The notes: generated by a model not told the origin, from the sequence alone. A DNA stretch of 64,000 nt from Thiohalomonas denitrificans (GCF_016841685.1 NZ_JAENYR010000007.1:1-64000), one strand, 5' to 3'; counted from the stretch's first letter, positions 11,886 through 32,051 are shown. Numbers and translations: made by a program.

Positions 11886-12022
11886 GCCATGATCCTACCG
11901 GGCGGGGCGCTCCCCTGCCATGCTCGATCCGCGCTGCTGTTGCTTTTCCTATGCTGTAGGGGACGATTTCCCGACATAGCCTTCCGTTGCAGCGCTACAG
12001 CCCGAGCCCACCTGAGGAGCTA

Positions 12023-14662
12023 ATGGCAAAAGCGACACCGAAGCGGGACAGCGATACACCCTGGCATGCGCTCTCGACAGAGGACGCGACACGCCGACTC
12101 TGCGCGTCTCCCGAAAAAGGCCTGACGGCCCCGGAGGCCGACGCCCGGCGCGAGCGTGAGGGACCCAATCAACTTGAAGAGCCGCCCCGGGCCGGCCCCG
12201 TTCGACGTTTTCTCGAACAGTTCAGGGGTCTGCTGATCCAGCTGCTGCTGTTTGCTGCCGTGCTCTCCGTCGCCATCGGCCACCTGCAGGATGCCGTCGT
12301 CATCGCCGCTGTGGTGGTGATTAACGCCTTCATGGGCTTCTATCAGGAGTATCGGGCCGAGCGCGCCCTGGAGGCGTTGTCGGCGATGCTGGCGCCCGAG
12401 GCCGAGGTGCGCCGGGATGGACACCGGCAGATGCTGCCCGCATCGGAATTGGTTACCGGCGATGTGGTGCTGCTGGACGCTGGCGATCGGATTCCGGCCG
12501 ATGGCCGCATCCTTTCCGCCCACGGGCTGGAGGTGGACGAATCGGTGCTCACCGGTGAATCCGTACCGCTGGGAAAGGATGCCGAGCCGGTAGCAGCCGG
12601 GATACCGCTCACCGGGCGCCAGGACATGCTTTACATGAACACCACAGTGACCCGTGGTCGTGCCGAGATGCTGGTAACGGCCACCGGCATGCGCACCGAA
12701 ACCGGGCAGCTGGCGCAATCGCTGGCCACAGAGAAAGCCGGCCCGACGCCGATGCAGGTGGAACTCGATGTGCTCGGGCGCCGCCTGGCTGCGGTAGCAG
12801 GCGTGATCGTCGCCGCGGTGATGGTGGGCTCTCTGGTACGCGGCGCCGATCTCACCGAGACCATCATGCGTTCCATTGCCCTGGCAGTGGCGGCGGTTCC
12901 CGAGGGACTCCCTGCCGTGGTCACGGTCACCCTGGCACTGGGGGTGCACCGGATGGCGGCCCAGCACGCCATCGTCAGACGCCTGGCTTCGGTCGAAACG
13001 CTGGGCTCCACCAACGTCATCTGCACCGACAAAACCGGCACGCTGACCCAAAACCTCATGACGGCCCGCATGCTCTATTTCCGCGGACGGAAAATCGCGG
13101 TTTCCCAAGCCGGCGACGATTCGGACCTGCGCCCCATATTGGCCCCCCTGGCGCTCTGCAATGACAGCCAGATCCGGCACGAACAGATCATCGGCGATCC
13201 GATGGAGGCCGCCCTGCTTCGTCTGGCGCGGGATAAAGACTTCGAACGGGAACGACAGCTGGAGCGCTGGCCGCGGGTGGCGGAGGTGCCGTTCGATGCA
13301 GCTCACAAGTACATGGCGACCTTTCACCTGGACGCAAACCGGGTCCGTATCTTCCTCAAGGGCGCCCCCGAAGCGCTGCTCCCGCTCTGCGGAAATTACC
13401 TGGATGCAGAGGGCGAATCACCGCTGGATGAGGATGCCTTCAGGGCAATCCTGGACCTCAACACGGAATTCGCCAGTGCCGGACTCCGGGTCCTGGGGGC
13501 TGCGGAGAAGGTCATCGATGCGGGCGAATTTGATGCCGGCAACGACCTCAAGGGCTATCTGCACGGAGTGACGTTCACGGGGTTGGTCGGGCTCATGGAT
13601 CCCCCCCGCCCGGAGGCCCGGAAGGCAATCGCGCGTTGCGGTGAAGCGGGCATCGACGTCAAGATGATCACCGGCGATCAGAAGGTCACCGCTTCGGCCA
13701 TTGCCGGCGAACTGGGCATTCGGGGCGATGTGCTGACCGGAGAAGAGCTGGAGCAGCTGAGCGACGACGCCCTGGCTGAACGGATCGCGGCCATTGCCGT
13801 TTTCGCCCGCGTCAGCCCCGACCAGAAAGTCCGTATCGTCCGTGCCATCAAAAAGAGCCACCGTGTCGTCGCGATGACCGGTGACGGCGTCAACGACGCA
13901 CCGGCCTTGCGCAGTGCCGACATCGGCGTGGCCATGGGCGCCGGCGGCACCGATGTGGCCCGCGAGGCTGCCGATCTGGTGCTGACCGACGACAACTTCG
14001 CAACCATTGTCACAGCCGTGAAGGAGGGGCGAACCATCTACCAGAATATCGTCAAGTTCGTCCGTTTCCAGCTCTCCACCAACATCGGCGCCCTACTCAC
14101 TGTCGCCACCGCGCCGCTGTTCGGCCTGCCCCTCCCGTTCAATGCCATTCAGATCCTGTGGGTCAACATCATCATGGATGGTCCGCCGGCCATGGCGCTC
14201 GGGGTAGACCCGGCACGAAAAGACACCATGGCCCGACCGCCACGGGACCCGGAATCCAGCATTCTGTCGGCACGCCGACTCGGTAATCTGGCCAGCTATG
14301 GCATCACCATGGCCATCGGCACTCTGGGGGTTCTGGCCTGGGGGCTTTCAGCGCGGGAGACCACCCATGCACTCACGCTGACATTCACCACATTCGTACT
14401 GTTCCAGGTGTTCAACGCCTTCAATGCACGTGCCGAGCAGATCTCGGCCTTCGGCCGCGACTTCTTCGCCAACCGTTACCTCTGGATGGCGCTCTTTGGC
14501 GTCGTACTGCTGCAAGTCATCGCCGTCCACTGGGCGCCGGCTCGGGAGATTTTCGGGACCGTGCCGCTGACGCTGATCGATTGGGGCATCGCCACCGGGG
14601 TGGCCTCGAGCGTGCTGCTACTCGAAGAAACCCGGAAATTGATCTTGCGCTGGGTCGGCTAG
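12023..14662 (+). CDS. P2-type calcium-transporting ATPase
   Basis: Ion-pumping P-type ATPase of 879 residues. In order: N-terminal cation-ATPase domain (about 10-75), actuator motif LTGES (about 180), TM4 motif [16 protein letters not shown], phosphorylation site [11 protein letters not shown] (Asp near 338), KGAPEALL in the nucleotide domain, [11 protein letters not shown] hinge, and C-terminal transmembrane domain. TM4 PEGL and TM6 [10 protein letters not shown] (Asn and Asp kept) are like PMR1/SERCA calcium pumps, so export of Ca2+ (perhaps Mn2+) is likely. The start is ATG 12023 with GAGGAG at 12014-12019; the upstream ATG at 11987 has no comparable site. It is divergent from the DnaJ-domain gene. 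Confidence 0.92.
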
Positions 14663-15779: not shown

Positions 15780-17319
15780 TCAGGCCGTCCGCTTCATGCC
15801 GGCCAGCATGTTCCTCTTGACCTTGCCGGACGGTGTCCTCGGCAACGCCTCCGAAAAGAGCAGTTCCCTGGGCAGCATGTGCGACGGCAGGTGGTGGCGA
15901 CAGAATCGGAGCATGCTATTCACGCTGGGAGTCACGTCCGGGTTCGGCACCACCACCGCCCGGACGACCTGCCCCAGCAATGCGTCCTCTATGCCGACCA
16001 CGGCAACCTCCTTGGCGTCCGGGTGCCTGGCGATGACCTCTTCAACCGCCCCCGGCGAAAAGCGGTGGCCACCACTTTTGATCATTTCGTCAGCACGCCC
16101 CACCAGGTAGAAATATCCGTCCCTATCCTGCCAGGAGAGATCACCGGTGTGCAGCCATCCGTCGCGCAACACCTCGTCAGTCGCCCTCGGGTTCCGCCAG
16201 TATCCTGCCATGACATTCTGTCCACGGGCGCAGAGCTCTCCGATACCGCCGGGCACCATACCCATGCCCTGCTCATCCCTGATGCTCAGTTCGACTCCGG
16301 GAATCGGCAAACCGATCGAGCCTCGCTTCTCGGCCCAGCGGTCCGGCGGTAACCAGGTGAGACGTGCCGTCGCCTCGGTTTGGCCATACATCACATAGAA
16401 CGCCACACTTGGCAGTTGCTCCCGGACCTGATCGACTGCATCGGCCCGCATCCCGCCACCGGCCTGCGCCAGATAACGCAGGTGCGGCAAGGGCTGTTTG
16501 AATATTCCATGCTGAAGCGCAAGGTAGTACGTGGTCGGTACACCGAAAAACCCGGTCACCGCCTGCTTCGCCAGGAGCTCTCGCACCGCATGGGGATAAG
16601 CCATTCCGTTGCCGATCACCAGGCGCGCACCGGCGGCGATATGGGTATTGAGAATGGAGGTCCCATAGGCGTAATTCAGGGGTAGCAGACAGAGCCCGAT
16701 ATCATTTTGGTGCAGATGGAGGTACCCGAGAATGGAGCGGGTATTTGCCTCAAGATTACCATTGGTGATCATGACTGCCTTCGGATTTCCGGTAGTTCCG
16801 GAGGTGCAGGCAAGAGTGGTCAATCGGCCGGGATCATTGAGAGCATCGTAATCGGGGTCCCCCGATTCAGCCGCCAGGACGGCTTCCCAGGCGAAGACCC
16901 GACCACCCGACGAAACTGATGGAGACCGTTTTCCCACCAATATCACGTCCAGGGTCGGGAGCTGATTACACGACTCCTTCCAGGAACGTTCGGTCCCTTC
17001 CGTGATTCAGCCACCTGGCTTCAACCCTGTCCGTCATCGTGGCAAGCTCGGAAACGCGCACATCGGGTCTGAGCGGCACGACCACGGCCCCCGCAGCGAT
17101 AATCCCGTAATAGGCAGCGACGTACTCGACTCCGTTGGCCAGCGCCAGGATCACCCGGTCACCGCGCTTCACTTTCGATTTTTGGAAGAACCCGCAAACC
17201 GCTCGTACCATCGACCAGAGTTCGTTGTAAGTGACGCCGGAAGCGCCGAGGCGAATAGCCTCACGATCCCCATTGGCGATTACCGACGCCTCAAGCTGAT
17301 GCACAATGCTCCTATCCAT
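15780..17319 (-). pseudogene. AMP-forming acyl ligase split by a frameshift
   Basis: Two frames together encode one adenylate-forming enzyme of about 512 residues. The N-terminal part starts at ATG 17319 (MDRSIVHQLEA) and runs to WLNHGRD before ending at 16966. The C-terminal part, in another frame, holds TSGTTGNPKAV (P-loop), YGQTEATARL, GWLHTGDLSW and PSGKVKRN (catalytic Lys). Removing one A at about 17006-17007 (minus-strand ctgaatcac to ctgatcac) joins WL to ITEGTERSWKES and restores one frame. The substrate cannot be told. It could be a real inactivating mutation or a one-base sequencing error in an AA run. The downstream half has a GTG at 16946 but would lack the N-terminal lid. Confidence 0.85.
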
Positions 17320-17530
17320 AGAGTCCACCTTCCCGAAATCAGGCCCGGAGCTGCTGCCGACGCGAGAGAGGCCAGTGTCCCCCGAGACGATTGATACTTT
17401 GGCGACTGCCTTACGGGAACCCCCTGCAAGTGCCGCTTCCGAAAAGCCCAAAGGTATCGTTGAGGATAGCCGGTTTAGCACTCTCCAAGGGATTGCCGAC
17501 AAATTCACGGAAGGCAAGCTGAACAGGACG

Positions 17531-17568
17531 CAAAAAAAACGCCGACACGGATTACCGTATCGGCGCTT
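17531..17568 (-). terminator. Rho-independent terminator after tRNA-fMet
   Basis: Read on the minus strand: CGCCGATACGG, loop TAAT, CCGTGTCGGCG, then eight T. The 11-bp stem has one wobble pair. It lies seven bases beyond the encoded CCA end of the tRNA, in the right orientation to end it. Confidence 0.9.
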
Positions 17569-17574
17569 CAAATG

Positions 17575-17903: not shown

Positions 17904-20123
17904 TCATTCTGCTCTCGTCGGGCTGAGGCGGTTTGCGACAACTAATCTCATACTCATAATCAGCGCGATGAGAATACCGATTCCTGCCGACCCTCCACCG
18001 CCACTGTTTTCGGGGAGGTCGGGGGTTGGTGCTACGAGAGCCTGCTCATCATCCAGAATCGCAACCGTGACCTCGGCAAGGACATTGTCACCCGACGCAT
18101 CCAGTAGACTGACAAGAAACGATTCATCTCCTTCGACCTCACTGTCATCTATCAGTGTGATCGGAACGGAGAGTTCGGCCTTATTGGCCTCGAAAATGAG
18201 ATTACCCTGCCGGGCAAGGAAATCCTTCCCGGCTTTGGCCAGTCCGTCCAGGGTTCGAAACCTGACCTCCAGTGGCTGGGAAGCATCACCCATGCGCCTG
18301 AAAACGACATTGGCGAGCGGTGCGTTCTCCCCGACCTCGATTTGCGAAATCGCCGATATGGCACTTTCCGTCCCGCTGTCATCGTCGAGAACCGAAATCT
18401 CTGCCGTCGCGGGTCCACTGATGGGAGCACCGCTCAGTTCCAGCAAAAAAGCTTGCCGGGGTTCCGCTACACCATCATCAATGATGGGAACCGAAACGGT
18501 GTGCTGTTCCGACGCCCCTGAAAAGCGAAGTTCGCCGGCTACCGCTTGATAGTCGCTGCCGGCCACTGCCGTTCCGTCCCGTGTCGCGTATCCCACCGCC
18601 AGCTCCCTCTCCCCACCGGTGCGGTATACGGTGACATTGACCGAACCGGCCCCTTCGGAGACAGCCGGGGAGACGTTGAGGATCTTGACAACACCGACAG
18701 ACGCGGTTTCATCATCAAGAATCGTGATGCCGGTTGTGGCTGTATCGATTAGCGCATTGATGGGGTTAGAGAGCTGCAGAGTAAAGTGCTCCTCCCCTTC
18801 CAATTCCGTATCGTCCGTGACCGCGATGAGCACGGTCTGCAGGGAAATGCCTGCAGGGAATTCGAGGGCTCCCCGGGTTGCCACGTAGTCGGACCCCTCC
18901 AGGGCCGTTCCGGGGGCGGTGGCATACTCCACGCGGCTGTCTGTCGTAGTCCTATCCCGCTGTATCGTCACCGCCAGCGATGGGTCGGTTTCATTCACCT
19001 GGTAGGTCTGCTGTGAGAAGCTCAGAATCGGAGGAGGCGTGCTTCCCGGCTCCTGCAGGGATACCGCAAGCACTGCCGTTTCCCCGTAGCCACGACAGCC
19101 TGTGATAACGTCGGGATAGCCGTCGCCATTCAGGTCAGCGACGGCTACCGGGCCGGGCTCGATGCAGTTGACTATACCCTCCCACATTCCTCCTGGACCC
19201 GACCACTCGATTAATCCAATGGTATTGTTTGCGCGATCAGTACCCACCAGTTCGGCGCGTCCGTTTCCATCCATATCCGCTCCAGCCAGCCCCCAGGGGG
19301 AAGGAGCGGCAACCGAACCCACGAAAGCCGGCGGCTCGTTTGCAGCGGTAATCTTCCATATGTCGACGCCTTCCGACGTGCCTACCGCAGCCTCGGGATG
19401 ACCATCGCCATCAATGTCGGCGGCGATAATAGCCGTCGAACCGCCGAGCAGGGCCATTTCCGAAAAGCCCCCGGCACCATCCGACCTGAGAATGCCCTGG
19501 GGAAGCGCGAGCTCGGGTCGGCCGTCACCATCGAAATCGGCGCTCGTTCCGTCCGTTGCCTGCCAACGCAGGGCGTCGGCGATGGCATGGCCCGTAGCGA
19601 ACCCGCCTCCGCCGTCGCCAGGGAAAAGAGTCACCCCGGCACCCACCGCAGCGATGACCGCCAGGTCCGGGGACCCGTCACCCGTGAAGTCCCGAGCGAC
19701 AATGTCAGCGGGAAAAGCACCTGCTCCGTCCAAGATGCCCGACGGCGAAAAGCCGCCTGTCCCGTCGCCCCTGAATAGGTGGACGAGCCCCTTGTCATCG
19801 CCTTCGGTCACCGCCAAATCGACTCGCGCATCGCCGTCCCAATCGCCTGCGGCGAGACCGTAGGGTTTGAACGCTACGGCCAGCGGGTGATCGGTCAAGA
19901 CACCGTCGCCTCCGTTCAGATGGACGCTGAGCTTGCCGTCGCCGCTACTGAGCCCGTACATCGCTACCGCCACGTCAACAGCACCATCGCCGTTGAAGTC
20001 GGCGACCTCGATATCCGTAGGGTCAGTCCCGGACAGCTCGTATTCAACGGGCGGGCCGAAGACGGCAGGGCTGCTCAGGGGCCACAAGGCCAATCCCAGC
20101 AGAACAAAACGACGGTATCCCAT
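17904..20123 (-). CDS. Secreted FG-GAP/Calx-beta protein with GlyGly-CTERM-like tail
   Basis: About 739 residues from ATG 20123. Signal peptide (RRFVLLGLALWPLSSPAVF), then about seven FG-GAP/VCBS-type repeats with calcium-loop motifs such as DFNGDGAVDVAV and DWDGDARVDLAV (about 30-350), which should form a beta-propeller. Three Calx-beta domains follow (about 360-465, 470-580, 590-690), each ending ILDDE or VLDDD. The C-terminus is a Gly run (SGGGGS), a hydrophobic helix and Arg residues, the layout of GlyGly-CTERM surface-sorting tails handled by rhombosortase. Its ATG overlaps the upstream protease stop as TAATG, so the two are translationally coupled. Likely a surface adhesin or scaffold; ligand unknown. 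Confidence 0.85.
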   Translation of the reverse strand: MGYRRFVLLGLALWPLSSPAVFGPPVEYELSGTDPTDIEVADFNGDGAVDVAVAMYGLSSGDGKLSVHLNGGDGVLTDHPLAVAFKPYGLAAGDWDGDARVDLAVTEGDDKGLVHLFRGDGTGGFSPSGILDGAGAFPADIVARDFTGDGSPDLAVIAAVGAGVTLFPGDGGGGFATGHAIADALRWQATDGTSADFDGDGRPELALPQGILRSDGAGGFSEMALLGGSTAIIAADIDGDGHPEAAVGTSEGVDIWKITAANEPPAFVGSVAAPSPWGLAGADMDGNGRAELVGTDRANNTIGLIEWSGPGGMWEGIVNCIEPGPVAVADLNGDGYPDVITGCRGYGETAVLAVSLQEPGSTPPPILSFSQQTYQVNETDPSLAVTIQRDRTTTDSRVEYATAPGTALEGSDYVATRGALEFPAGISLQTVLIAVTDDTELEGEEHFTLQLSNPINALIDTATTGITILDDETASVGVVKILNVSPAVSEGAGSVNVTVYRTGGERELAVGYATRDGTAVAGSDYQAVAGELRFSGASEQHTVSVPIIDDGVAEPRQAFLLELSGAPISGPATAEISVLDDDSGTESAISAISQIEVGENAPLANVVFRRMGDASQPLEVRFRTLDGLAKAGKDFLARQGNLIFEANKAELSVPITLIDDSEVEGDESFLVSLLDASGDNVLAEVTVAILDDEQALVAPTPDLPENSGGGGSAGIGILIALIMSMRLVVANRLSPTRAE

Positions 20124-21835
20124 TACCTTATGGCCGTTTCGGCGGGTACGGCGCCTTCCGGTCCGCTCACAGTCACCGTGCCGGGATCGCCGCCGATACC
20201 GCGGGCGGTCAACTCCCAAGACAAATCCTTCTTGCGCCAACGCATGTCACCGAAGCCCTCCACCCGCAGCACCGCATCCGGCCCCAATTCGCTGGTGGCG
20301 GCAACCGTCAGGGTGTCCCTGCGTGCGGTGTACATCGTCTCGGTTACGACGATAGTCAGGTCGTAGCCGTTGCAGTCCTGGTCGATACCGTCGCCGACTA
20401 TCTCCTCGGCTCCGGGATAAATGGATGCATCGTTGTCGTTGCAGTCCTCTGCCGCGGAATAGCCGTCGCCGTCCGCATCGTCGGGGGCGGTGCCGGCCAG
20501 AGCATCGTAGGCCGCGGTTAACCGGGGCAGGCCGTTACCGTAGGCGTTGTCCGCACCGGCCGGCCCGAGGTCGGCGGCCGAACCTGCGAGCGCCGCCTCC
20601 AGCTCAGCGACGCTGGAAGTGGGATAGGCGTCACGCATCAGAGCAAAAGCGCCCGCCAAATGGGCCGCGGCAATGGAGGTGCCGCTGACCGACACATAAC
20701 TGTCCGGAAACAGACCGCCGTAGGTTAGGTCGGCGGTGTAGACCTCCACCCCCGGCGCGCTCAACTCGGGGTAGATGCCCCCATCGCAGGCAGAGGGGCC
20801 ACGCCCGCTGAAGTCGGCCACGGAATACGAACTGTCCACTGCACCGGCTGCAAAGGCATTACCGTAGTTTCCCGGGCTCACGCTGCTGCCGCCATCCGGA
20901 CCGCTGTTGCCACCGGAAAAGGCGACAGCAATTTCGGCCAACTTGAGCAGTTGCACATCTTCCAGAAATTCCGTATCGCAGGTCCCGACGCTGTTGAGCA
21001 ACGCCCATGCCGCCACCACGACTTCCGGCGAATCGTCCACATCCGGATTACCATCGGGGTCCAGCGCCCACTGAAAGCCCTGGTGGATGCCGCTCAGGGT
21101 GGCCCGACCGCTGTCGTCGAACACTTTGGCGGCAATCCATTGCGTCCGCGGCGCAACGCCGATGGGAGAGCCGCTATTGCTGCCCCCCACAGCGACGCCG
21201 AGCACCTGGGTGCCGTGCCCGCTGGCATCATACGGCGTGACGTGTTCCCCGTACGGATCGAACCAGTCACTATCGCCGCCGCGCCATCGGGGGCCGAGGT
21301 CGGGGTGTCCGGTATCAACCCCACTATCCAGCGAAGCGACGGTAACACCGTTGCCGTCATACCCTGATGCCCATAGCGCGTCGGCCTCGATGCTTTGCAG
21401 ATTCCACCCGGGCATTGCCGAAGCTCCAACTTCATTCGCCGTCAGAGTCACCTCCGCATCGAAGATAATCCGCCGAATCCCGGACCGTCTCGCCAATACC
21501 GTTATTTCACTCGCCGGCAGCTCGGCAGCCAGGGCGTTAATGTGCCACAGCTGCACGGGCTGCCCGAAAGGCCGTAGCTCCCGCAGCAGGCCGGCCTGAC
21601 TTTGCTTCGCGGTATTCCGGAGCCGCACGAGCAGTTCGGCCCGGCGCTCCGAACGTTCAAAGCCCGCAAGGTCATCGGTCCGGGCTTGTGCGCTGAACTC
21701 GAGAATAACCGGAATCCGCTCCTCCGGCGATGCCGACGCCAGATGCTCTTGAAGACGCTCACCGGTCGTCCCGGCCTGGGCATGCAGTGAAAAGACAAAC
21801 CCCCATCCATACAGCAGCAGCTTTCGCGCATCCAT
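20123..21835 (-). CDS. Secreted subtilisin-like S8 protease with MopE-like motif
   Basis: About 570 residues from ATG 21835 (an upstream ATG at 21874 would bury the signal peptide). Signal peptide ending LHAQA, an inhibitor-like propeptide (about 25-120), then a subtilase domain with the full triad: Asp in VASLDSGVDTGHPD, His in ASGHGTQVLG, Ser in SGTSIAAAHLAG, and oxyanion-hole Asn in FSGGNSGPDGG. After the protease domain comes DADGDGYSAAEDCNDNDASI followed by YPGAEEIVGDGIDQDCNGYD, a Cys-paired acidic segment of the MopE metal-binding type, named after the copper-binding protein of Methylococcus. It is sixth in the secreted operon and may process or mature the others. Confidence 0.9.
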   Translation of the reverse strand: MDARKLLLYGWGFVFSLHAQAGTTGERLQEHLASASPEERIPVILEFSAQARTDDLAGFERSERRAELLVRLRNTAKQSQAGLLRELRPFGQPVQLWHINALAAELPASEITVLARRSGIRRIIFDAEVTLTANEVGASAMPGWNLQSIEADALWASGYDGNGVTVASLDSGVDTGHPDLGPRWRGGDSDWFDPYGEHVTPYDASGHGTQVLGVAVGGSNSGSPIGVAPRTQWIAAKVFDDSGRATLSGIHQGFQWALDPDGNPDVDDSPEVVVAAWALLNSVGTCDTEFLEDVQLLKLAEIAVAFSGGNSGPDGGSSVSPGNYGNAFAAGAVDSSYSVADFSGRGPSACDGGIYPELSAPGVEVYTADLTYGGLFPDSYVSVSGTSIAAAHLAGAFALMRDAYPTSSVAELEAALAGSAADLGPAGADNAYGNGLPRLTAAYDALAGTAPDDADGDGYSAAEDCNDNDASIYPGAEEIVGDGIDQDCNGYDLTIVVTETMYTARRDTLTVAATSELGPDAVLRVEGFGDMRWRKKDLSWELTARGIGGDPGTVTVSGPEGAVPAETAIR

Positions 21836-22033
21836 GCCTGACTCCCTGTCATCTCTCCCGTCGTCAGCCCGCATTTTTCACCACAGAGGACCAAATTCAT
21901 CAATACTCTCAGTTGGACTACCTGAGTTTCCGAGCGGTGTCTCGGTATGGCCGCCTCTGTGATCGGTGTGGTTGTTCATGAAACCGGAGATTAGCCCTAA
22001 CAGCTAACACCGGCTTCTGAGACGCTTACGGCG

Positions 22034-22552: not shown

Positions 22553-24403
22553 TTATTTAATGACATCCACGCGAACCGTGGCTTCGTTGGAGAGCGCGCC
22601 TTCGGTATCGGCAACCGTGTACCCGAATGCATCACTGCCCCGGAAGCCCGGCGACGGGGTGTAGGTGATGGTGCCGTCGGCGTTGGCAATGGCGGAACCG
22701 TGCAGCGGTTGTGTCACCACAGTTACGCTGGCCGGTTCGAGGTCGCCGTCGGGATCGCTATCATTGCTGAGCACGTTGATGGTGACCGGCTCCCTGAACG
22801 GTGTGGTGGCCTGGTCGTCGCTGGCCATCGGTGCAATGTTGGCGGCTGCTTGGACGGTCAGGCTCACGAGGACTTCAGCATGGCTGACGGTGCCGTCACT
22901 CACCGTGTAGGTGAAGCTGTCCGGGCCCGTATAGCCGGCATCAGGGGTATAGGCGAATCCGCCATCCGACTCCAGCGCAAGGGTGCCGTGGTCCGGCAAA
23001 GCGGCCGTCGCCGCAGTGAGGGTATCTCCGTCCGGATCACTGTCGTTGGACAGTACGCCGGGGGCGGCTACCGTCAGGGTGGTGTCCTCGTTCACCGCAT
23101 AGCTATCGGCGGTGCCGACCGGCGCATCGTTGGTCGGGTTGACGATCAACGTGACCGTCGCCGGTGCACTCTGGAGCGTGCCGTCATCGGCCCGGTAGCT
23201 GAACACTGCACTGCCGCTGAAGTCCGGCGGCGGCGTGTAGGTGAAGGAGCCGTCAGGCTCCAGATTCAGCGACCCGGCACTGACTGGATCGTCCAGCGTT
23301 GCCGTCAGCGTCCCGTCGGCAGATTCGTCGTTCCCCAGAACGCCGGGCGCGGCCACCGCAAGCGGCTGGTCCTCATCCGTGGCATAGCCATCGTCGACGG
23401 CGATCGGCGTGCCGACCACCGTACCCACTTGCAATCCGGAAAGCATACCGCCGCCGGGCCGGCCGGCATCGGTCAGATTCAGTCGCCGGTCATAAATCGG
23501 GTACACCCCCTCCTTTTGCGGCGTAAAAACAGCATCCCGGGTCTTGGCGGGCGACAGGGTCACTGAATACTGCTGTCGCAGGTAGGGATAAGCAAAGCCA
23601 TCCTCGGCCACGACCTGAAGATGGCTGCCCTGCAGCACGGGCACATGGGTGTTCAATCCCATATTGAACAGCCTCAGCAGGGTTGGCTCGCCGACCGCGC
23701 CGGCGGCGATCGGGGTCGAAACGCCTGACTGGTAGGGCTCTCCGTTGATGAGAAAGTATTTCGGACTGTAATCGACGGAACTGGGGTAAGCCGCCGTGCC
23801 GTATTCGCCGCTGGTGATCGCGGCGTTCAGTGCCGGATCGATCTCGCTGAAAAACAGCAGGGCTTCAGTGGTGGCAGCGACGCCCGGATAGGGCTCGCCG
23901 GCAGCCGCATCCTTGGTGATACCGCCATAGAGGCCCATCGGCACCTGCATCTGCGGTGAGGTCGCGCTGTGATAAACGTGACTGCCGGCGGAGAGTGACG
24001 GCCAACTGTAGGTTCCGGTTCCACCCGGTGCCGTCTCATGGGTCAATGAGCGGGCCCGGCGACGCCCCTGCGCATCGGTGGTGAACACCGGATCACCGCC
24101 CGAGGCCTCGCCGGGGATGATAAGGGATACCGGGGCCGACAGGGTATTGTGCAGGGTGATGGTCAGCCCCGGATCCTCCGGCGGGATGTCGATGATCGGA
24201 CCGGGCGACGTAGACGTTTCGGTCCCGTCCAGTACGCCGTTGGCGTTGAGGTCTTCGGCGAATCCCCACTGCGTCAACTGCACGCCGTCGGGCATGATCT
24301 TCGTCAAGGGCGCAGCGATGAGGTGCACCTCCTTGGCCCCCGCCGAACCGCCGGCAAGCACCAGCGCCGCGCATAGAGCACTCCTTGTCCTGGTTACTTT
24401 CAT
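22553..24403 (-). CDS. Cupredoxin protein with lost copper sites and three Ig-like repeats
   Basis: 616 residues with signal peptide (ALVLAGGSAGA). The first 330 residues are two cupredoxin domains like those of the next two genes, but the copper motifs are nearly gone: the domain-1 loop reads HVYHSATSPQMQVPMGL (Ser where a type-1 Cys would be), there is no HxHG, the domain-2 motif keeps one His (NTHVPV) and the last motif is PIYDRRLN. After residue 335 come three Ig-like tandem repeats of about 90 residues, each opening DDxYAxxED and containing GVLxNDxDxDGD and FxYTPxxxFxGxDxFxY. It is likely a structural or surface-attached partner of the other two cupredoxin proteins. Confidence 0.87.
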   Translation of the reverse strand: MKVTRTRSALCAALVLAGGSAGAKEVHLIAAPLTKIMPDGVQLTQWGFAEDLNANGVLDGTETSTSPGPIIDIPPEDPGLTITLHNTLSAPVSLIIPGEASGGDPVFTTDAQGRRRARSLTHETAPGGTGTYSWPSLSAGSHVYHSATSPQMQVPMGLYGGITKDAAAGEPYPGVAATTEALLFFSEIDPALNAAITSGEYGTAAYPSSVDYSPKYFLINGEPYQSGVSTPIAAGAVGEPTLLRLFNMGLNTHVPVLQGSHLQVVAEDGFAYPYLRQQYSVTLSPAKTRDAVFTPQKEGVYPIYDRRLNLTDAGRPGGGMLSGLQVGTVVGTPIAVDDGYATDEDQPLAVAAPGVLGNDESADGTLTATLDDPVSAGSLNLEPDGSFTYTPPPDFSGSAVFSYRADDGTLQSAPATVTLIVNPTNDAPVGTADSYAVNEDTTLTVAAPGVLSNDSDPDGDTLTAATAALPDHGTLALESDGGFAYTPDAGYTGPDSFTYTVSDGTVSHAEVLVSLTVQAAANIAPMASDDQATTPFREPVTINVLSNDSDPDGDLEPASVTVVTQPLHGSAIANADGTITYTPSPGFRGSDAFGYTVADTEGALSNEATVRVDVIK

Positions 24404-24439
24404 AGTCCTAGTCCTTTGTCCGGGAATCCTTGGTTGACA

Positions 24440-25732
24440 TTACGGAATTGGCGTGCCGGGCGGCTCGACCACCATCATGGTCATCATGCCGCCGGGGAAC
24501 ACGTCGAAGTTGGTCATCTCCTTTTCGACATGGGAGTGCCACATAAAGAAGAAGCCGCCGTACTCGTTAAGGCCGCCCTCACCCGGAGGCAGGCTGCCCT
24601 CGGTCCCCAGGAACGGGCTGCCGCTGTATTGACCGCCGAAGGCCAGCTCCTGTGCTTCCGGCAACTGCACCGGAAACGGCTCGCCATGGTCCGGGCAGTA
24701 TTCCCAGGTGCTGTCATCGAAGTCATCGCCGTCACCGTCATTACACTCGTGTGGCGCGTCTCCGTAGATGTCCCAGCCCATCTTTCTGCCGGTCCAGTGG
24801 AACAGGGCGTCATAGGTGGCGCCGGGCACCGTCTTGATCGTGAACTCAGAGTAGGCAAGGTCCGCCCCCGCCCCCGGTGCGCTCTGCAGCAGACGCCCGT
24901 CCCTGGCGATAACCCGAGTGTTATTGCCGTGGTGGTGAAAGGGGTGCAGATCCCGACCTGCGCCGACAATGCGCATCAGCATGGTATCCCCCGGCCGCGT
25001 CCGGATCATTGCGTTGTAGGGCTGGGTCGGCAGCCATGAGGCGCCCGCCGGCGCCATGGTATCGGGCGCGGCCCGGCCGTTGATGAACCAGTACATGGGG
25101 TAGTAGGCACTGGTATCGACGCCATCCAGATTGCCGGCGGCCACCTGCTCGTGGAGGGCCGGATCCATTTCCGTTAACAGAAACAGATATTCATGGTCGA
25201 ACCGGGAGTCAGCGTGGTTGTAGGCCAGGCCGGCACCCTGACTCGGCCGGACGATAAGGGCGCCTAACAACCCCATTTCCACCTGCAGGTCGGGGCGGGT
25301 TCCGCTGTGGTACATATAGGTGCCGGGCCGCCGCGCAACGAAACTGTAGGTAACCGGATCGTCCGGGCCGGTGCTCTCGCGCGTCAGCAACCCCTCGCTT
25401 CCGCCGCTGGCTGTCACCCCCGTCTGACCGGGAAAGAGCATCGAAGTGGGAACCGGCGTACCGTTGACGGCAATTTCGCTGCTGAGGGCTACCGTCACCG
25501 TGTCGCCCTGGTTGACGATCAGGGTCGGCCCGGGGTACTGACTGCGGCTGCCTTCAGGGCCGTAGCCCCAAACCGGGACGCTGCCGCCGTCAGGCATGGA
25601 GATGGTGTCCGCTGCGGCCGTCAGGTTGAAGGTGGGTCCGGGGATACCATCTATAGCCGCCCCCGCCGATGGGACTGCCAGCGTCAGCCAGCAGAATCCG
25701 GCAATCCAATTGCATATCCTTGTCCATTTCAT
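24440..25732 (-). CDS. Two-domain multicopper-oxidase-like protein, domain-2 ligands only
   Basis: 430 residues with a signal peptide (WIAGFCWLTLAVPSAGAA). Domain 1 (about 30-165) lacks the HxHG motif, and its loop reads MYHSGTRPDLQVEMGL, with Ser at the type-1 Cys position. Domain 2 (about 225-425) has HPFHHHG (His 263, 266, 268) and WHSHVEKEMTN (His 399, 401), which correspond to the third and fourth trinuclear-centre motifs, again without Cys. The insert GDAPHECNDGDGDDFDDST looks acidic and may bind calcium. Start ATG 25732 lies 16 bases after the upstream gene. The protein has half of a trinuclear copper site and no blue copper of its own. Confidence 0.88.
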   Translation of the reverse strand: MKWTRICNWIAGFCWLTLAVPSAGAAIDGIPGPTFNLTAAADTISMPDGGSVPVWGYGPEGSRSQYPGPTLIVNQGDTVTVALSSEIAVNGTPVPTSMLFPGQTGVTASGGSEGLLTRESTGPDDPVTYSFVARRPGTYMYHSGTRPDLQVEMGLLGALIVRPSQGAGLAYNHADSRFDHEYLFLLTEMDPALHEQVAAGNLDGVDTSAYYPMYWFINGRAAPDTMAPAGASWLPTQPYNAMIRTRPGDTMLMRIVGAGRDLHPFHHHGNNTRVIARDGRLLQSAPGAGADLAYSEFTIKTVPGATYDALFHWTGRKMGWDIYGDAPHECNDGDGDDFDDSTWEYCPDHGEPFPVQLPEAQELAFGGQYSGSPFLGTEGSLPPGEGGLNEYGGFFFMWHSHVEKEMTNFDVFPGGMMTMMVVEPPGTPIP

Positions 25733-25748
25733 GGCTGCCCCGCTCTCC

Positions 25749-27011
25749 TCAGTTGATCACGATTTCGGTCATCATGCCGCCCACATCGGCACCGTTATTG
25801 GTCAGGTACTGAAAATTGGTGGTATAGAGAAAGTACGTTCCCGGCTGGATGCCGGTGGTATCGAGGAGCACGTCCGCCGCCTCCCCGCCGCCAAGCGTCA
25901 CTGAACTGGTCCGGTAGTACAGGTCCCTGCCATCGGGGGTGCCGCCCCCTCGAAGGATTCGCGCACCGCGGCCGATCACCTGCATCGGGATCCCCTGGGA
26001 GCTGACGGTGTAGAAATTGGTGACGTTCAGGTTGGAGAGCCTCAGCAGTATCCGTTCACCCTGCTGCGCCTCAATCAAAGAGTCCAGCGGCTGCGATTCG
26101 ATACCGCCGTTTTCGGCCGGTGCTTGCGGCGGGGTGGAACTGACCGTGTCCGGATAGCCCCGTCCGTTCAGCATCGCGTAGCGATCTTCCATATAGGCGA
26201 ACGGCAGCGGCTGAGTGGTTTCGCTGGCGTCGTGGAAGGCCGGGTCGAAGGAGCCGAGCTGTATGGCGTAATCCACGTCGTAGCGGGTGGAGCCGTCGCC
26301 GTCGTTGTAGGCGTAGGTATCGCCCACGGTAGGGTCATCGTCGTTCCGGTCGGCGTTGTAATCGGGGTTGCTATGGACGTGCGTCCCGAGTGCGGTGCCG
26401 TCCGGCAGCCGGTTTTGGATCGGCCGGATATAGAGGTTGCCGAGCATCCCCATCTGCATGTGCTCCGTCGCCTCCACGTGGCAGTGGTACATATAGGTGC
26501 CCGGCTCCACCAGGTTGTAGTAATAGGTGAGGCTCGATCCCATGTTGATGGAAACCGAGGCCTCGGGAACCCCGTCAAAAATCGAGGACGCCTCGGGGAA
26601 GCCGTGGTAGTGCACGGTGTGAGGGTCGAAGAGGTCGGGCCGCACCGCCATGCCGACATTGGTCAGCGTCAGGTAGAGCTCATCCCCCTCGTCGGCCACA
26701 ATGGTCGGTGCCGGGAAGGTAGCGGCCAGCATGCCGGTATCCATCGCCTTCTTCTCCGAAATTCCCGTGAGGTCGGAGAAGCCGAACATGTACAGGGGAC
26801 GCCCGTCCGCCATGCGCACATAGCCATCGCCGGCCCCCAAATGCACACAGCGGGCATTGGGATGGTCCGGGTCACCCCTGCCATCGGAGATCGCATCACC
26901 GTTCTGATCACCGGGACACTGGACCGTGACGCCGGCCAGGGCCGTACCGGATGCGCCGGCGGCGATTGCCACGGCGAGAGCGGTCCGACATGGCCATAGA
27001 ATCCTTTCCAT
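25749..27011 (-). CDS. Two-domain multicopper oxidase, type-1 copper in domain 1
   Basis: 420 residues with a signal peptide (ALAVAIAAGASGTALA). Domain 1 carries VHYHGFPE (His 134 and 136, trinuclear motif 1) and MYHCHVEATEHMQMGML (His 176, Cys 177, His 178, His 184, Met 189), which combines the trinuclear His pair with a full type-1 copper set. This is the layout of type-C two-domain oxidases such as the Nitrosomonas blue copper oxidase. Domain 2 (about 310-420) has lost its ligands: NFYTVSSQG stands where HPFHxH should be, and YTTNFQYLTNN where HxH should be. Alone it cannot form a trinuclear centre. It follows the giant gene by 87 bases with GGAGGAA before ATG 27011. Confidence 0.9.
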   Translation of the reverse strand: MERILWPCRTALAVAIAAGASGTALAGVTVQCPGDQNGDAISDGRGDPDHPNARCVHLGAGDGYVRMADGRPLYMFGFSDLTGISEKKAMDTGMLAATFPAPTIVADEGDELYLTLTNVGMAVRPDLFDPHTVHYHGFPEASSIFDGVPEASVSINMGSSLTYYYNLVEPGTYMYHCHVEATEHMQMGMLGNLYIRPIQNRLPDGTALGTHVHSNPDYNADRNDDDPTVGDTYAYNDGDGSTRYDVDYAIQLGSFDPAFHDASETTQPLPFAYMEDRYAMLNGRGYPDTVSSTPPQAPAENGGIESQPLDSLIEAQQGERILLRLSNLNVTNFYTVSSQGIPMQVIGRGARILRGGGTPDGRDLYYRTSSVTLGGGEAADVLLDTTGIQPGTYFLYTTNFQYLTNNGADVGGMMTEIVIN

Positions 27012-27098: not shown

Positions 27099-30000
27099 TT
27101 ACGGCATCTGTTCATCGGCCCCGGCGTCATACCCGAGACCTGCGGGGCGGGCATTTCCGTCATAGTCCACGGTCACCCCGGCGTCCGTTGCGAAGTCCAG
27201 TGCCACCGAGCCACTACCAATGTGATAGTCGCCGTTGGACAGGCCAAGCGGACCGTAGTGCACGTCGATGAAGTTGCCGCCCTCGTCGAACGCGGGCATC
27301 ACCGCGAGTGTGGTCTTCGGCTCGGGATAGATGACTCCCGGAGGCCCTTGGTTGAGGTACTCGGCCAGGAAGGCGGGGTCGCCCTCGACATTGCTGCCAT
27401 CGTATCCGGCTGCGTCGGTCAACACGCTGTAGAGCGGATTGAGACTATCAGCCGGATCCCCGGTCCCCAGTACGGCCAGGTCCCAATACTCCGGCGCCTC
27501 GCCGACATCCAGGTTCGGGGACAGACCGAACGGCGGGTCCTGATTGGGGTCCATCACGAAGCTGAAGGAGCGGTTGTGCCAGATGATGTTGTTCTCCAGC
27601 CCCGGGCTCGAGAACAGCGGCTCCCGCATTCGTTCAGCCGTTGCCGCCAATGCCGGGCTGTGGGCGTGACCCACAATACCCGCGGGCTGGGGGACGGACT
27701 GGTTGGGCTGCCCCGGCGCGAAGGCCGCTCCGGCCGTGGCGGTACTGTCGTTATTGGCGATGGTGTTGTGCAGCACCGTCACGTTGCCCGCGTCCTGCAG
27801 CGAGATCCCGCCGCCGGCCAGACCGGAGACGTTGTTGACCACGAAATTGTTGATGATCTCCACTGCATACCAGGTTCTCTTGGAACCGTGCTCCATGTCG
27901 AGCCCGTTCACCGACTCCAGGCGCATGCCGCCGCCATGGCCGGCTCCGGCATGGTTACCCTGGACCCGGTTGGAGAGGATCCGCACCAGCCCGGCGCCGG
28001 GGCTCAGCAGTCCGCCACCCACCGGTGCGACGCCGCCGATGAAGATGCCGCCGCCGGATACCGTGAGACCCTGATTGAACGACTGGTTGAAGGCGATGAT
28101 GTTGCCCTCAATCAGCCCGTCGTTGCTCAGACCCAGGTGGCCGACACCGGCCCCGTTGCCCTGCGTGAAGTTGCCGCACACCAGGTTGTCGGTCACACGG
28201 TAGGCATCGGAACCGGTATAGAGACTGATACCCCCGCCCGCACCGCCACTGGCGCCATTCGTGTACACATGGTTATGGTGGATTGCGATACGGTCGTTGT
28301 ACGCATCCTGGTACTCGAGCCCCTGGTTGGTCTCCAGAACCAATTCGGGGTGGCCCAGCCGGATGCCGCCGCCGTAGATGCCGTGATTGCCGAACACCCG
28401 GTTGTTGGCAATCGCCATGTCGTTGGCGTAGCCGTTGACGACGATTCCGCCGGCATGGTCGGCACCGGTGATGGCGAAGCCGTCGACCCAGGCCAGGGGC
28501 AGACCGTCCCTGTCCCGGCCAAACCCGCCCTTGTTGGGCATTTCATCCTTCGCAAGGACAATGACCCCCGGCCCCTCCTCGGTAAAGAGTGTGGCCGGTT
28601 CGGGCAAGCCGAAGCCCAGCTCCTGTGCCGGGAGCAAGTCCACCTCACCTGCGGTGATCAGCCCCTCGACCTTGTCTCGCCACGCCTGGAGCTTGTTGCC
28701 CGGCGCCTTCAGCGCGTCGATGACCGTGTTGGCGCCGAAGCCCTGCAGGCGGATCGGCTTCCACATGATCACCAACTCCTCGTACCGGCCGGGATGGACC
28801 AGGACCATGTCGCCGGGCTCCGCCTGGTCGATGGCATCCTGGATGGGCGTGGCGTTCGTATCAGCCGCTGGCCACACCTCGTGGACCGCCGCTTCCGCCC
28901 GACCGTTGGCGGAGAGCAGCGAGCCGACGACGATGGTGCTGCTGACACCCGCCTCCGCTCCGGTATCCGCGCGGACGATCTCCAGTTGGCCCGTAGCGGC
29001 ATCCGCCGGCACGGTCCCGCTGATCAGGGTGTCGCTCCGGGCGATGCCCTCCAGCGGTGTGCCGCCGATGGTCACGCTGCCATCCGTACCAAACCCGGAA
29101 CCGGCGATCTCAATCGCCTCACCCGGCTGCACATAGGGGCTGGAAACCGAATCGACCGCGGGCGTTCCCGCCGGATAATCGCAATCCAGAGTGGCCTGAT
29201 TGGGTCCGGCGAACGCCGATACCGGGACCACCGGGGTATCCAGGTAGGTGGTAGTGCCCGGCATGTACTGGAAGGTGTAACAGAACTGGCTGTACTGCGG
29301 GTTATGCCGCGGGTCGTTGGCCGAGTTCATGCAGGTGATGAGCATGTTCGGCGACATGCCGCTGGGCATCGGCAGATTCGCCGTGTAGGTGGACGGGACC
29401 AGGGCGTTGTAGCGTCCCCAGCGATCGGAATAGGTGCGGGCGATCTCGTTGCCCGTCCAGTCGCGAATGGAGACCGGCAGTCCCGGCGGCGAGTATTTCT
29501 CGCCGAAGTTCGGCGCGGCCGGATCGAACTCGTTGGAGAGGTCGTCCAGGATGAAGCCGACCACGTGACCGGCCGGCGGGACCTGGGTAAACATGAAGAA
29601 TTCAGCCGCCGCATTTCTCCCGTCGGACAGCGTCACCTGCTTACGGTTACAGAGGGGCCGCTGGTCACCGGCGAACGGCGCCGCGATGAACTGCTCGGCC
29701 GACCCAACCGGATTGCCGTCGCCATCGGTCTGGAAGCTCATATAGTCCGGCACCGTACGCAGCTCACCGACACAGGCCGGCGGAAGGAGCTGCGGCACAT
29801 AGGTATCGCCGAAGTCGACGTTACGATCCTCCTCCTTGACCGTCTGGTAGACCGGGTGTTCGCCGGTGCCGACAATATACTCGCCGGCAGGCAGGCCCGC
29901 GACTTCGGCACCGCCCGAGACGATGCCGTCCGGGTGGTAGCTGTCAAAGGCGTAGCCACCGTCGAACACCGCCGGACGCGCCTGATTGAAGTTGCGAAGC

Positions 30001-32051
30001 CCGTCATAGCAATCGGTGGGGTAGAGACCGTCAACATAGAAGACTTCCCCCTGACAGCCCGTAGGCAGGCTGTCGTCCCAACTGTCGGTGGTGGTGATCT
30101 GAATGGCGTCACCGGCATCGAACAGACCATTGTCGTTGTAGTCGATGTCCTCCGGCCCGGCCGTTCCACCGTCGCGCCACCCGAAGGGGTGGTTGTCCAC
30201 GTCGGCTACGGTCTCCTCGCCATCACCGTCCAGGTCGTCAATCACTCCGTCGCTGTCGCTGTCCTGATACAGGGCCACCTGAATGCGCGGAATGCCGGGC
30301 TCCCAGGGTTCGGCAGCGGCATAACGCGGGTCATTCTCCGCGCGGGTGGTGGCGTAGAAGACCATGCCGGACATTCCACCGTTCTCGCCCGGTTCGTAGG
30401 CCTTCTTGCCCCACTGGATGACGTTGGTCTGTCCTAGGAAGCCCTGGAAACCCTGCGTCAGGACCGGGCCGGTTTCGGTGCGGTAGGGCAAATAGTCATT
30501 CTCAGACTGCGGCTGCGGATTCAGGACACCGCCGAATCCCCAGGGGCCATTGTCTACCGGCCCGCCGTCATCGGCGACGATGGTGGCACCGGTGGCTTTG
30601 AGCCGGCCGAAATCCACCTCGGCCACCAGCCAGCTAAAAAAGGGGAATACCTCGTCATAAGGCGCGGCGCCCTCCATGTCGGTGGGCATGCTCTGGTAGA
30701 GCGAGCCGTCCCGGAAGCGGAGATTGGTCACCACCTCGGGAATGGGGGCCTCGCCCGGGTCCCAGAACCCGTTTTCGTTCTCGTCGTTGAAGACGTAGTT
30801 TTCCAACCGCGCGAACCAGGAGAACACAGGCACATCGAGCAGGTTGCAGCCCGGGGTGCTGTTACAGTTGCCCTGGGTATCCACGCTCACATTGGTCGAG
30901 CCGAAGATAACATCCAGGTTGGCATCCCAGATGGCAAGCTGGTAGTCGCCGGGCGGGACATTGGAGATATTGAAGCTGCTGTCGGCGCTGCACGGTGCCG
31001 CGAAGACACCCCGGCCAATGCCGACGGACATATCATTCAAACCGATCCAGCAGTCCGGGACCGGAGCCCCGGTATAGAAGGCAAAATCCGGCGGCCGCGA
31101 ATTGTGCACCTGCCGCACCTGTCCCGTGACCGTGGTACGGGTCGTCCCCGGCAGCGAGGCCAGGTTATCAAAGGATTGGACAAAGCCGATAAACACGTGG
31201 GGACCAGGGGGTCCGAACTCCGTGAAATAGGACGGCTCGTCCGCCTTCACCCACGCGTCTACAGTCTTGGTGCCCTCGATGGTACTGGTTTGAACCCAAC
31301 CCTGGCCCGCTGGCGGGATCACCTCCACCCCGTACTTTCCGGGGGCAAGATTCTTGATAGCAGCATACCCGTCCGGGCCAGTCAGGATGGTCCCATTCCC
31401 CATCGCGGCAACAGTGCCGTCTTCGTTGTAGGTGGTCCCCAGGGCATTGCCGAACGCGTCCTGCATCATCTGGCCCCCGGAGGCCCCGTAGCGTCCGCCG
31501 GCATCGGAGAGTTTGATCTGGAATCCGGCCAGCCCTTCTTCCTCCGGCGTATCCGGCGCATTGTTGATCGGATAGTCGTCATGAAAGACGAAGATCCGGA
31601 TCTGGGCCGTGGGCAACGGCAGGCGATTGACCTTCACCTGCACCTGCCCCTGTCCGGGCTCGATGGGTGCCGCCCCGATGGTGGCCCCGCCGTCAGTTCC
31701 CGCATCTGCCGGAAGGATAGAGAGATAGTAATGCTTGTTTGGATCGAGGTCCGGAAGGGAACCCCCGGCCCAGCCCTCGGCAACCGGAGGCATGTGGCTC
31801 CGATGAAAATCGACGGATAGGCAGTTATCCAGACGCCCTTCTTCACACGTCGCAGGGGGGCCGGGGTTTATATGGTGCGTAACGTCCTCTTCGATCAGCC
31901 ACCGATAACTGGTAATGGCCGACGTCCCGTCGGTTACCGATAGTTCTGGTATCTGCGCTTGGGAAATCCCGGGGAAGAATCCTAACATGAAAAAAATGAC
32001 AAAAACGAACCCCAGACCGGGGCCGCCAAGCCCTCCGTTGCCTCGCTTCAT
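27099..32051 (-). CDS. Giant secreted modular protein with parallel beta-helix
   Basis: 1650 residues. Signal peptide (FVFVIFFMLGFFPGISQA). The N-terminal 800 residues hold several SdrD/Cna-B-like or carboxypeptidase-regulatory-like beta domains, e.g. YVFNDENENGFWDPGEAPIP (about 420) and ALYQDSDSDGVIDDLDGDGE (about 610), the latter a calcium-type Asp ladder. An IPT/TIG domain follows (about 1000-1080). A right-handed beta-helix (about 1105-1480) opens with PIQDAIDQAEPGDMVLVHPG and has NosD/pectate-lyase-like turns such as NNRVFGNHGIYGGGIRLG. The end, DYDGNARPAGLGYDAGADEQ, matches a choice-of-anchor Q type tail. First gene of the operon; probably an extracellular scaffold or polysaccharide-binding protein. 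Catalysis is not established. Confidence 0.87.
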   Translation of the reverse strand: MKRGNGGLGGPGLGFVFVIFFMLGFFPGISQAQIPELSVTDGTSAITSYRWLIEEDVTHHINPGPPATCEEGRLDNCLSVDFHRSHMPPVAEGWAGGSLPDLDPNKHYYLSILPADAGTDGGATIGAAPIEPGQGQVQVKVNRLPLPTAQIRIFVFHDDYPINNAPDTPEEEGLAGFQIKLSDAGGRYGASGGQMMQDAFGNALGTTYNEDGTVAAMGNGTILTGPDGYAAIKNLAPGKYGVEVIPPAGQGWVQTSTIEGTKTVDAWVKADEPSYFTEFGPPGPHVFIGFVQSFDNLASLPGTTRTTVTGQVRQVHNSRPPDFAFYTGAPVPDCWIGLNDMSVGIGRGVFAAPCSADSSFNISNVPPGDYQLAIWDANLDVIFGSTNVSVDTQGNCNSTPGCNLLDVPVFSWFARLENYVFNDENENGFWDPGEAPIPEVVTNLRFRDGSLYQSMPTDMEGAAPYDEVFPFFSWLVAEVDFGRLKATGATIVADDGGPVDNGPWGFGGVLNPQPQSENDYLPYRTETGPVLTQGFQGFLGQTNVIQWGKKAYEPGENGGMSGMVFYATTRAENDPRYAAAEPWEPGIPRIQVALYQDSDSDGVIDDLDGDGEETVADVDNHPFGWRDGGTAGPEDIDYNDNGLFDAGDAIQITTTDSWDDSLPTGCQGEVFYVDGLYPTDCYDGLRNFNQARPAVFDGGYAFDSYHPDGIVSGGAEVAGLPAGEYIVGTGEHPVYQTVKEEDRNVDFGDTYVPQLLPPACVGELRTVPDYMSFQTDGDGNPVGSAEQFIAAPFAGDQRPLCNRKQVTLSDGRNAAAEFFMFTQVPPAGHVVGFILDDLSNEFDPAAPNFGEKYSPPGLPVSIRDWTGNEIARTYSDRWGRYNALVPSTYTANLPMPSGMSPNMLITCMNSANDPRHNPQYSQFCYTFQYMPGTTTYLDTPVVPVSAFAGPNQATLDCDYPAGTPAVDSVSSPYVQPGEAIEIAGSGFGTDGSVTIGGTPLEGIARSDTLISGTVPADAATGQLEIVRADTGAEAGVSSTIVVGSLLSANGRAEAAVHEVWPAADTNATPIQDAIDQAEPGDMVLVHPGRYEELVIMWKPIRLQGFGANTVIDALKAPGNKLQAWRDKVEGLITAGEVDLLPAQELGFGLPEPATLFTEEGPGVIVLAKDEMPNKGGFGRDRDGLPLAWVDGFAITGADHAGGIVVNGYANDMAIANNRVFGNHGIYGGGIRLGHPELVLETNQGLEYQDAYNDRIAIHHNHVYTNGASGGAGGGISLYTGSDAYRVTDNLVCGNFTQGNGAGVGHLGLSNDGLIEGNIIAFNQSFNQGLTVSGGGIFIGGVAPVGGGLLSPGAGLVRILSNRVQGNHAGAGHGGGMRLESVNGLDMEHGSKRTWYAVEIINNFVVNNVSGLAGGGISLQDAGNVTVLHNTIANNDSTATAGAAFAPGQPNQSVPQPAGIVGHAHSPALAATAERMREPLFSSPGLENNIIWHNRSFSFVMDPNQDPPFGLSPNLDVGEAPEYWDLAVLGTGDPADSLNPLYSVLTDAAGYDGSNVEGDPAFLAEYLNQGPPGVIYPEPKTTLAVMPAFDEGGNFIDVHYGPLGLSNGDYHIGSGSVALDFATDAGVTVDYDGNARPAGLGYDAGADEQMP

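Follow-up and report, generated by a model that had tools for sequence, protein, structure and literature searches.

The window analysed here, a 64,000-nucleotide stretch of the Thiohalomonas denitrificans genome, contains three head-to-tail genes for cupredoxin proteins, denoted A, B and C, which are embedded among genes for surface and exported proteins (Table 1). The three ORFs of the preliminary description were recovered with exactly the coordinates, strand and lengths listed in the table, and Pfam searches detected multicopper oxidase (MCO) domains in all of them. In C, two cupredoxin domains (residues about 25-335) are followed at the C-terminal end by the three adhesin-type domains. 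The end of the subtilase gene is overlapped by an ORF for an FG-GAP/Calx-beta surface protein, and further along, two adjacent ORFs that cover successive parts of one Pfam model make up an AMP-binding gene split by either a frameshift or an assembly error.

Table 1. Features of the oxidase locus and its surroundings, with positions counted from the first nucleotide of the window
Feature	Position	Strand	Description
Giant surface protein	27099..32051	minus	1650 aa; SdrD_B, PL4 domain II-like, TIG, right-handed beta-helix/NosD-like
A	25749..27011	minus	Two-domain cupredoxin, 420 aa; Sec-type N-terminus
B	24440..25732	minus	Two-domain cupredoxin, 430 aa
C	22553..24403	minus	616 aa; two cupredoxin domains and three Big_9/tandem-95 adhesin-type domains
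P155	22034..22501	minus	155 aa; exported, no Pfam family; position downstream of C conserved
S8 subtilase	20123..21874	minus	MopE-type putative copper-binding motif
FG-GAP/Calx-beta ORF	17904-20240		Surface protein; true start uncertain
AMP-binding ORF, one part	16966-17571	minus	Acyl-CoA synthetase type
AMP-binding ORF, other part	15780-16946	minus	Acyl-CoA synthetase type

In two-domain MCOs, the trinuclear copper centre sits at the interface that domain 1 of one chain forms with domain 2 of its neighbour, and in the type-C enzymes, the blue copper is located in domain 1. The closest solved structures by sequence include type-C oxidases, 3g5w being the top match for A and C, and 2zwn for B. 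Domain 1 of A contains the motifs HTVHYHG (His131/134/136) and HCHVEATEHMQMGM (176-189), and in the printed alignment, the domain-1 ligands of 3g5w fall on HYHG and on the latter motif. Alignment with 3g5w and 2zwn, together with textbook motifs, assigns His131-Cys177-His184-Met189 to the type-1 copper site, and sequence comparison assigns His134, His136, His176 and His178 to the trinuclear centre. The equivalent places in domain 2 of A are occupied by NFYTVSSQG and YFLYTTN and are ligand-free. The layout of B is the reverse: its domain 1, with PTSMLFPG and YHSGT, is devoid of ligands, and its domain 2 contains LHPFHHHG (His263/266/268) and MWHSH (His399/401), with LHPFHHHG and MWHSHVEKE aligning with the domain-2 ligands VHAIHTHG and IHDHVD of 3g5w. 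By the same alignment and motifs, the expected trinuclear ligands of B are His266/268/399/401, and His263 sits at the position of a type-1 histidine; the cysteine is replaced by Ser400, leaving B without a type-1 Cys. Hence, of the two facing histidine sets listed in the preliminary description, His134/136/176/178 of A and His266/268/399/401 of B stand, but His263 drops out. Motif inspection of C yielded no ligand set in either cupredoxin domain, in agreement with the near-absence of ligands claimed earlier for this protein.

We examined the ligand columns in orthologues drawn from about ten phyla (94 of A, 89 of B and 74 of C). In A, each of His131/134/136/176/178/184, Cys177 and Met189 is present in 94/94 sequences, so that the earlier description of A, with HYHG and HCH...H...M in domain 1 and a ligand-free domain 2, extends to every orthologue. 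His263/266/268 of B are likewise retained throughout (89/89), as are His399/401 and Ser400 in all 81 sequences that cover these positions; the earlier reading of B, namely, no ligands in domain 1 and HPFHHHG plus WHSH in domain 2, is thus borne out. Across these 94, 89 and 74 sequences, no ligand set is kept by domain 2 of A, by domain 1 of B or by C. Glu180 of A, in the motif HCHVE, is kept in 90/94 sequences and presumably occupies the position of the proton-relay acid of other MCOs. As judged from these sequences, the complementary split of the ligands between A and B is essentially invariant, beyond what chance would give. Between its two ligand motifs, domain 2 of B also carries an insertion of about 80 aa (residues about 310-395), a candidate substrate or metal site, in which a Cys is largely conserved and which also contains an EYC-DH motif and a run of acidic residues.

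In a fixed sample of 369 genomes of the class, the orthologues of A, of B and of C are confined to one and the same set of 10 genomes, always as neighbours; weaker matches of B (in G101 and G141) and weak matches of C (in G054, G101 and G255) belong to a second family described below. Scanning GTDB genomes turned up 131 relatives of A, and 80 loci were retained. According to the record titles, these loci come from Pseudomonadota, deltaproteobacterial lineages, Myxococcota, Acidobacteria, Planctomycetota, Nitrospirae, Bdellovibrionales, Bacteroidales, Hydrogenedentes, CSSED10-310 and Dehalococcoidia; the host records are mostly MAGs, and single odd taxa may reflect binning errors. Among the hosts of A-B-C are the typically anaerobic Desulfobulbus, Desulfovibrio and Thermodesulfovibrio. 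The order A-B-C is held in loci from about ten phyla, with A and B separated by about -20 to +70 bp, and the whole block from the giant protein through A, B, C and P155 to the S8 subtilase recurs across loci in unchanged orientation. The automatic table listed A without B at five loci, three of which (L059, L079 and L106) are cut by a contig edge, and two (L117 and L118) are short windows for which B appears in the fuller regions L128 and L127. Thus, A without B was not observed on any contig long enough to show B, and the co-occurrence proposed earlier as a check on the pairing holds for all three genes. No relative was found among viral contigs.

The gene for the giant surface protein, upstream of A, accompanies the oxidase genes in almost every locus. 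In five loci (L067, L073, L082, L099 and L104), it forms a single ORF with A, and in six others (L071, L100, L105, L124, L125 and L127), with C. A further fusion with A, suggested by ORF length in L114 of genome G328, was not counted, given that A and the giant protein lie in different frames (L129). That the giant protein has become fused independently to A and, in other lineages, to C suggests that all these proteins belong to one assembly, and the A-B-C complex is probably anchored to the giant protein. The S8 subtilase, conserved downstream of P155 in many loci, is a possible processing protease for the complex.

For structure prediction, AlphaFold2 (AF2) was run on natural read-through chains, namely, A-B-C from L056, where the three genes share one frame, and A-B from L002, a locus in a genome of the window's family where A and B are in one frame. 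The stop codons of A and B were read as Gly and the signal peptides served as linkers, purely as a modelling device with no claim about translation; the folding alignments, consisting mostly of similar in-frame read-through rows, were checked block by block. The A-B model (822 aa) has a pLDDT of 89.6 and a pTM of 0.88, and the A-B-C model (1169 aa) reaches 83.8 and 0.87, respectively, with very low confidence confined to the linkers and the last ten residues. In the A-B model, single chains superpose on type-C oxidases, A matching 3g5w with a Z score of 31.0 (274 residues, 1.9 Å). For B, the superposition on 2zwn/3g5w has a Z score of about 30. The multicopper oxidase 6vow (409 residues) matches the A-B model over 375 residues (Z 26.6, rmsd 2.6 Å). 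The match covers the model range 37-816; given that A ends at about 393 and B starts at about 429, it runs from A domain 1 to B domain 2, and, considering the size of 6vow, must include three domains. In Foldseek, the three-domain laccase 2xu9 gave TMt values of 0.71 against the A-B model and 0.70 against the A-B-C model. From the 6vow and 2xu9 matches, it follows that the contact between A domain 1 and B domain 2 in the model corresponds to that between domains 1 and 3 of laccases, the contact that builds the trinuclear centre. The two domains are therefore predicted to meet like the trinuclear pair of ordinary laccases, and the geometry anticipated in the preliminary description is reproduced by the model, with the caveat that MCO and NirK trimers are known to AF2, so that a familiar interface could be imposed. 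The six-domain ceruloplasmin superposed poorly on the A-B-C model (TM 0.21, rmsd about 34 Å); because Foldseek aligns domains in chain order, this superposition of the A-B-C chain is uninformative as such. The mismatch argues against a ring in the order A-B-C and is expected for, without proving, a ring in the order B-A-C. We infer the ring position of C from the pTM of the model and this failed sequential superposition.

By both sequence and fold, the best PDB matches are the type-C MCOs 3g5w (Nitrosomonas europaea blue copper oxidase) and 2zwn (a metagenomic laccase), and the type-C label used in the preliminary description is apt. Like A and B, these enzymes consist of two cupredoxin domains; they share with A (94/94), but not with B or C, the type-1 copper in domain 1. 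The trinuclear histidines contributed by domain 1 and domain 2 of different chains are a further common property, which for A and B exists in the predicted model only. However, type-C MCOs are homotrimers in which each chain carries both ligand halves, whereas the A, B and C chains carry one half or none, and on sequence grounds, the A/B pair is a variant of the type-C MCOs rather than a plain member. Ceruloplasmin (1kcw, 4enz) resembles the A:B:C arrangement proposed from the model in having six cupredoxin domains and one trinuclear centre, but is one polypeptide with several type-1 sites, whereas A:B:C would be three polypeptides with one such site. Also among the fold matches is the Bacillus Mnx manganese oxidase (MnxEFG, 9bxa), a multi-subunit bacterial MCO of metals; MnxG holds the whole MCO core in one chain, and MnxE and MnxF are not cupredoxin paralogues. 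We considered and rejected identity with NirK, a homotrimer with type-1 and mononuclear type-2 copper only: A and B together supply eight trinuclear histidines, and the match to NirK is at the level of the fold.

In a maximum-likelihood tree of 57 sequences, {B, C, B'} form one side, and {A, A', complete type-C and other two-domain enzymes} the other, with support of 98/85. B is joined to C with support of 100/98, and A to A' with 91/83; the grouping on the A side could be biased by ligand residues that its members have in common. Here, A' and B' denote a second split family, represented in the same genome (G000, contig C54), outside the window, by an adjacent gene pair (L133:10462-11532 for B' and 11569-12597 for A'). 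B' (356 aa) carries ligands in domain 2 only, and A' (342 aa) in domain 1 only. Relatives of B' were found in 23 of the 340 genomes of the class, with A' adjoining B' in nearly every window; in the wider phylum sample, the family was detected at E <= 1e-30 in its own genome only. The ligands of A' are invariant (25/25), and the trinuclear histidines of B' are kept in 26-27 of the 27 sequences. A Tat motif is present in 21/27 B' proteins and in none of the 25 A' proteins, which mostly lack any signal peptide, suggesting that A' may be exported by hitchhiking on B', which would require prior assembly of the two; three loci (L149, L158 and L160) have a Sec-like N-terminus on B' and a hydrophobic N-terminus on A'. 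The tree fits an origin in which a complete type-C oxidase was duplicated once and the two copies then lost complementary ligand halves; C would be a later copy of B that has lost the second half as well.

A comparable cluster is known from Sideroxydans lithotrophicus ES-1, in which three tandem MCO genes have been noted (He et al. 2017, PMC5566968). The passages drawn on from a later study describe the ES-1 cupredoxin cluster as Slit_1812-1818, with two cupredoxins carrying typical MCO motifs and one without, all three being higher on magnetite compared to Fe(II)-citrate in proteomics (Keffer et al. 2025, PMC12016527). The cluster comprises three cupredoxin genes, the large third one joined to adhesin/PL domains, then genes for small proteins, SCO1/SenC and a cytochrome. 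In our set, the loci L124+L165 and L127+L164 have the order A, B, C fused to the giant protein, P155, a LolA-like protein, SCO1/SenC and cytochrome c, which matches the published order from Slit_1818 to Slit_1812. The window differs from the ES-1 cluster, as described in these passages, in that C and the giant protein are unfused and the S8 subtilase stands in place of SCO1 and the cytochrome. No shared active site is proposed for the ES-1 proteins in the passages concerned (PMC12016527, PMC5566968).

Taken together, the ligand split, the strict co-occurrence and the fusions with the giant protein, all evident in the sequences, make it likely that a single extracellular multicopper oxidase, descended from a type-C two-domain MCO, requires A, B and C alike as its subunits. 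In the enzyme envisaged, electrons from the substrate would enter at the blue copper in domain 1 of A and travel over the Cys177-His176/His178 bridge to reach a trinuclear cluster formed by the four histidines of A domain 1 and the four of B domain 2 across the predicted A-B interface, and oxygen would be reduced at this cluster. An oxygen-reducing role is not certain, considering that some of the hosts are typically anaerobes. C, the ligand-free paralogue of B, would most likely take the third place in a NirK/type-C-like ring (B-A-C), resulting in one active site per heterotrimer, as in ceruloplasmin, compared to three per homotrimer. The complex, probably held by the giant beta-helix/adhesin protein, may oxidize a metal or mineral outside the cell. 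The proposal of the preliminary description that A and B form a hetero-oligomer with a complete type-C site thus gains support from co-occurrence and the modelled geometry, and its view of C as a structural subunit also appears likely, as C is a paralogue of B in the tree, is placed confidently with A and B and is fused to the giant protein in several genomes. Given that C is always present and is a paralogue of B, we prefer an A:B:C trimer, as the more economical arrangement, to the A3B3 hexamer, which had been suggested as well. Whether the full picture applies, namely, a three-gene bacterial counterpart of ceruloplasmin with a six-domain A:B:C ring, a single trinuclear site common to two subunits, tethering to the giant protein and oxidation of minerals, all stemming from one type-C duplication that also founded the second, Tat-hitchhiking two-subunit family, is in our estimate evenly balanced.

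In the open-access literature searched, we found no paper on a heteromeric MCO with a split trinuclear site. The parts are known, from the type-C oxidases and the ES-1 cluster; what appears new is that paralogues inherited together divide one active site between them. Models of MCO evolution start with homotrimeric two-domain enzymes and arrive, through fusion, at single chains of three or six domains. A heteromeric MCO of wide distribution, whose duplicated subunits each keep one half of the site, would add an evolutionary route that we did not find in that literature. Motif-based annotation treats A and B as distinct oxidases and C as lacking enzyme function, so that attempts to express any one of the three genes by itself would fail. 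The magnetite-induced ES-1 proteins, in turn, would become a concrete, testable enzyme.

The role of C is the point on which a different assembly could be envisaged: A and B alone might constitute the enzyme, as an A-B heterodimer, an A3B3 ring or an A2B/AB2 trimer, with C as a separate structural or adhesin protein whose part is only to dock it to the surface. The second family, with the same split and no C gene next to the B'/A' pairs in the retrieved windows, and the pTM of 0.88 attained by the A-B chain by itself speak for this arrangement. However, C accompanies A and B in 10/10 genomes, has two cupredoxin domains of its own, groups as the sister of B in the tree, and is placed confidently together with both (pTM 0.87), so we regard an enzyme without C as unlikely. 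Far less credible is the notion of separate homotrimers, in which A would carry electrons by its blue copper, B would be a bystander or a nitrite reductase-like protein, and the leftover histidines would be relics. It draws on the homotrimeric nature of the related NirK and type-C enzymes, on which each single chain superposes, but relics would be expected to decay, whereas none of the trinuclear histidines varies in domain 1 of A (94/94) or in domain 2 of B (all 81-89 covering sequences), with the complementary positions varying freely; the lack of a type-1 Cys in B and the strict co-occurrence of the three genes also run counter to it.

With A, B and C as subunits of one oxidase, the complex might still do a different job: it could detoxify copper, scavenge oxygen or oxidize phenolics. 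Genes for SCO1-type copper chaperones, which lie near 20 of the 64 long loci and also speak for the shared oxidase as such, and MopE-like copper proteins among the neighbours are compatible with such roles, as is the presence of the genes in the typically anaerobic hosts named above. On the other hand, the ES-1 cluster of the same gene order rises, according to the passages cited, on magnetite and not on dissolved Fe(II) (PMC12016527), multihaem cytochrome genes lie near 11 of the 64 long loci, and many hosts belong to Fe/S redox lineages. We therefore hold these other functions to be a serious but less probable option, and surface oxidation of a metal or mineral remains our best guess.

Two observations from individual loci may be added. 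Multihaem cytochrome ORFs with 21-38 CxxCH motifs are located less than 10 kb from the oxidase genes in L040 (3-2582), L051 (2-1762) and L075 (19751-21196). The locus L024 contains two tandem cupredoxin genes (1-1015 and 1021-2031), both of which encode the domain-1 ligand set only.
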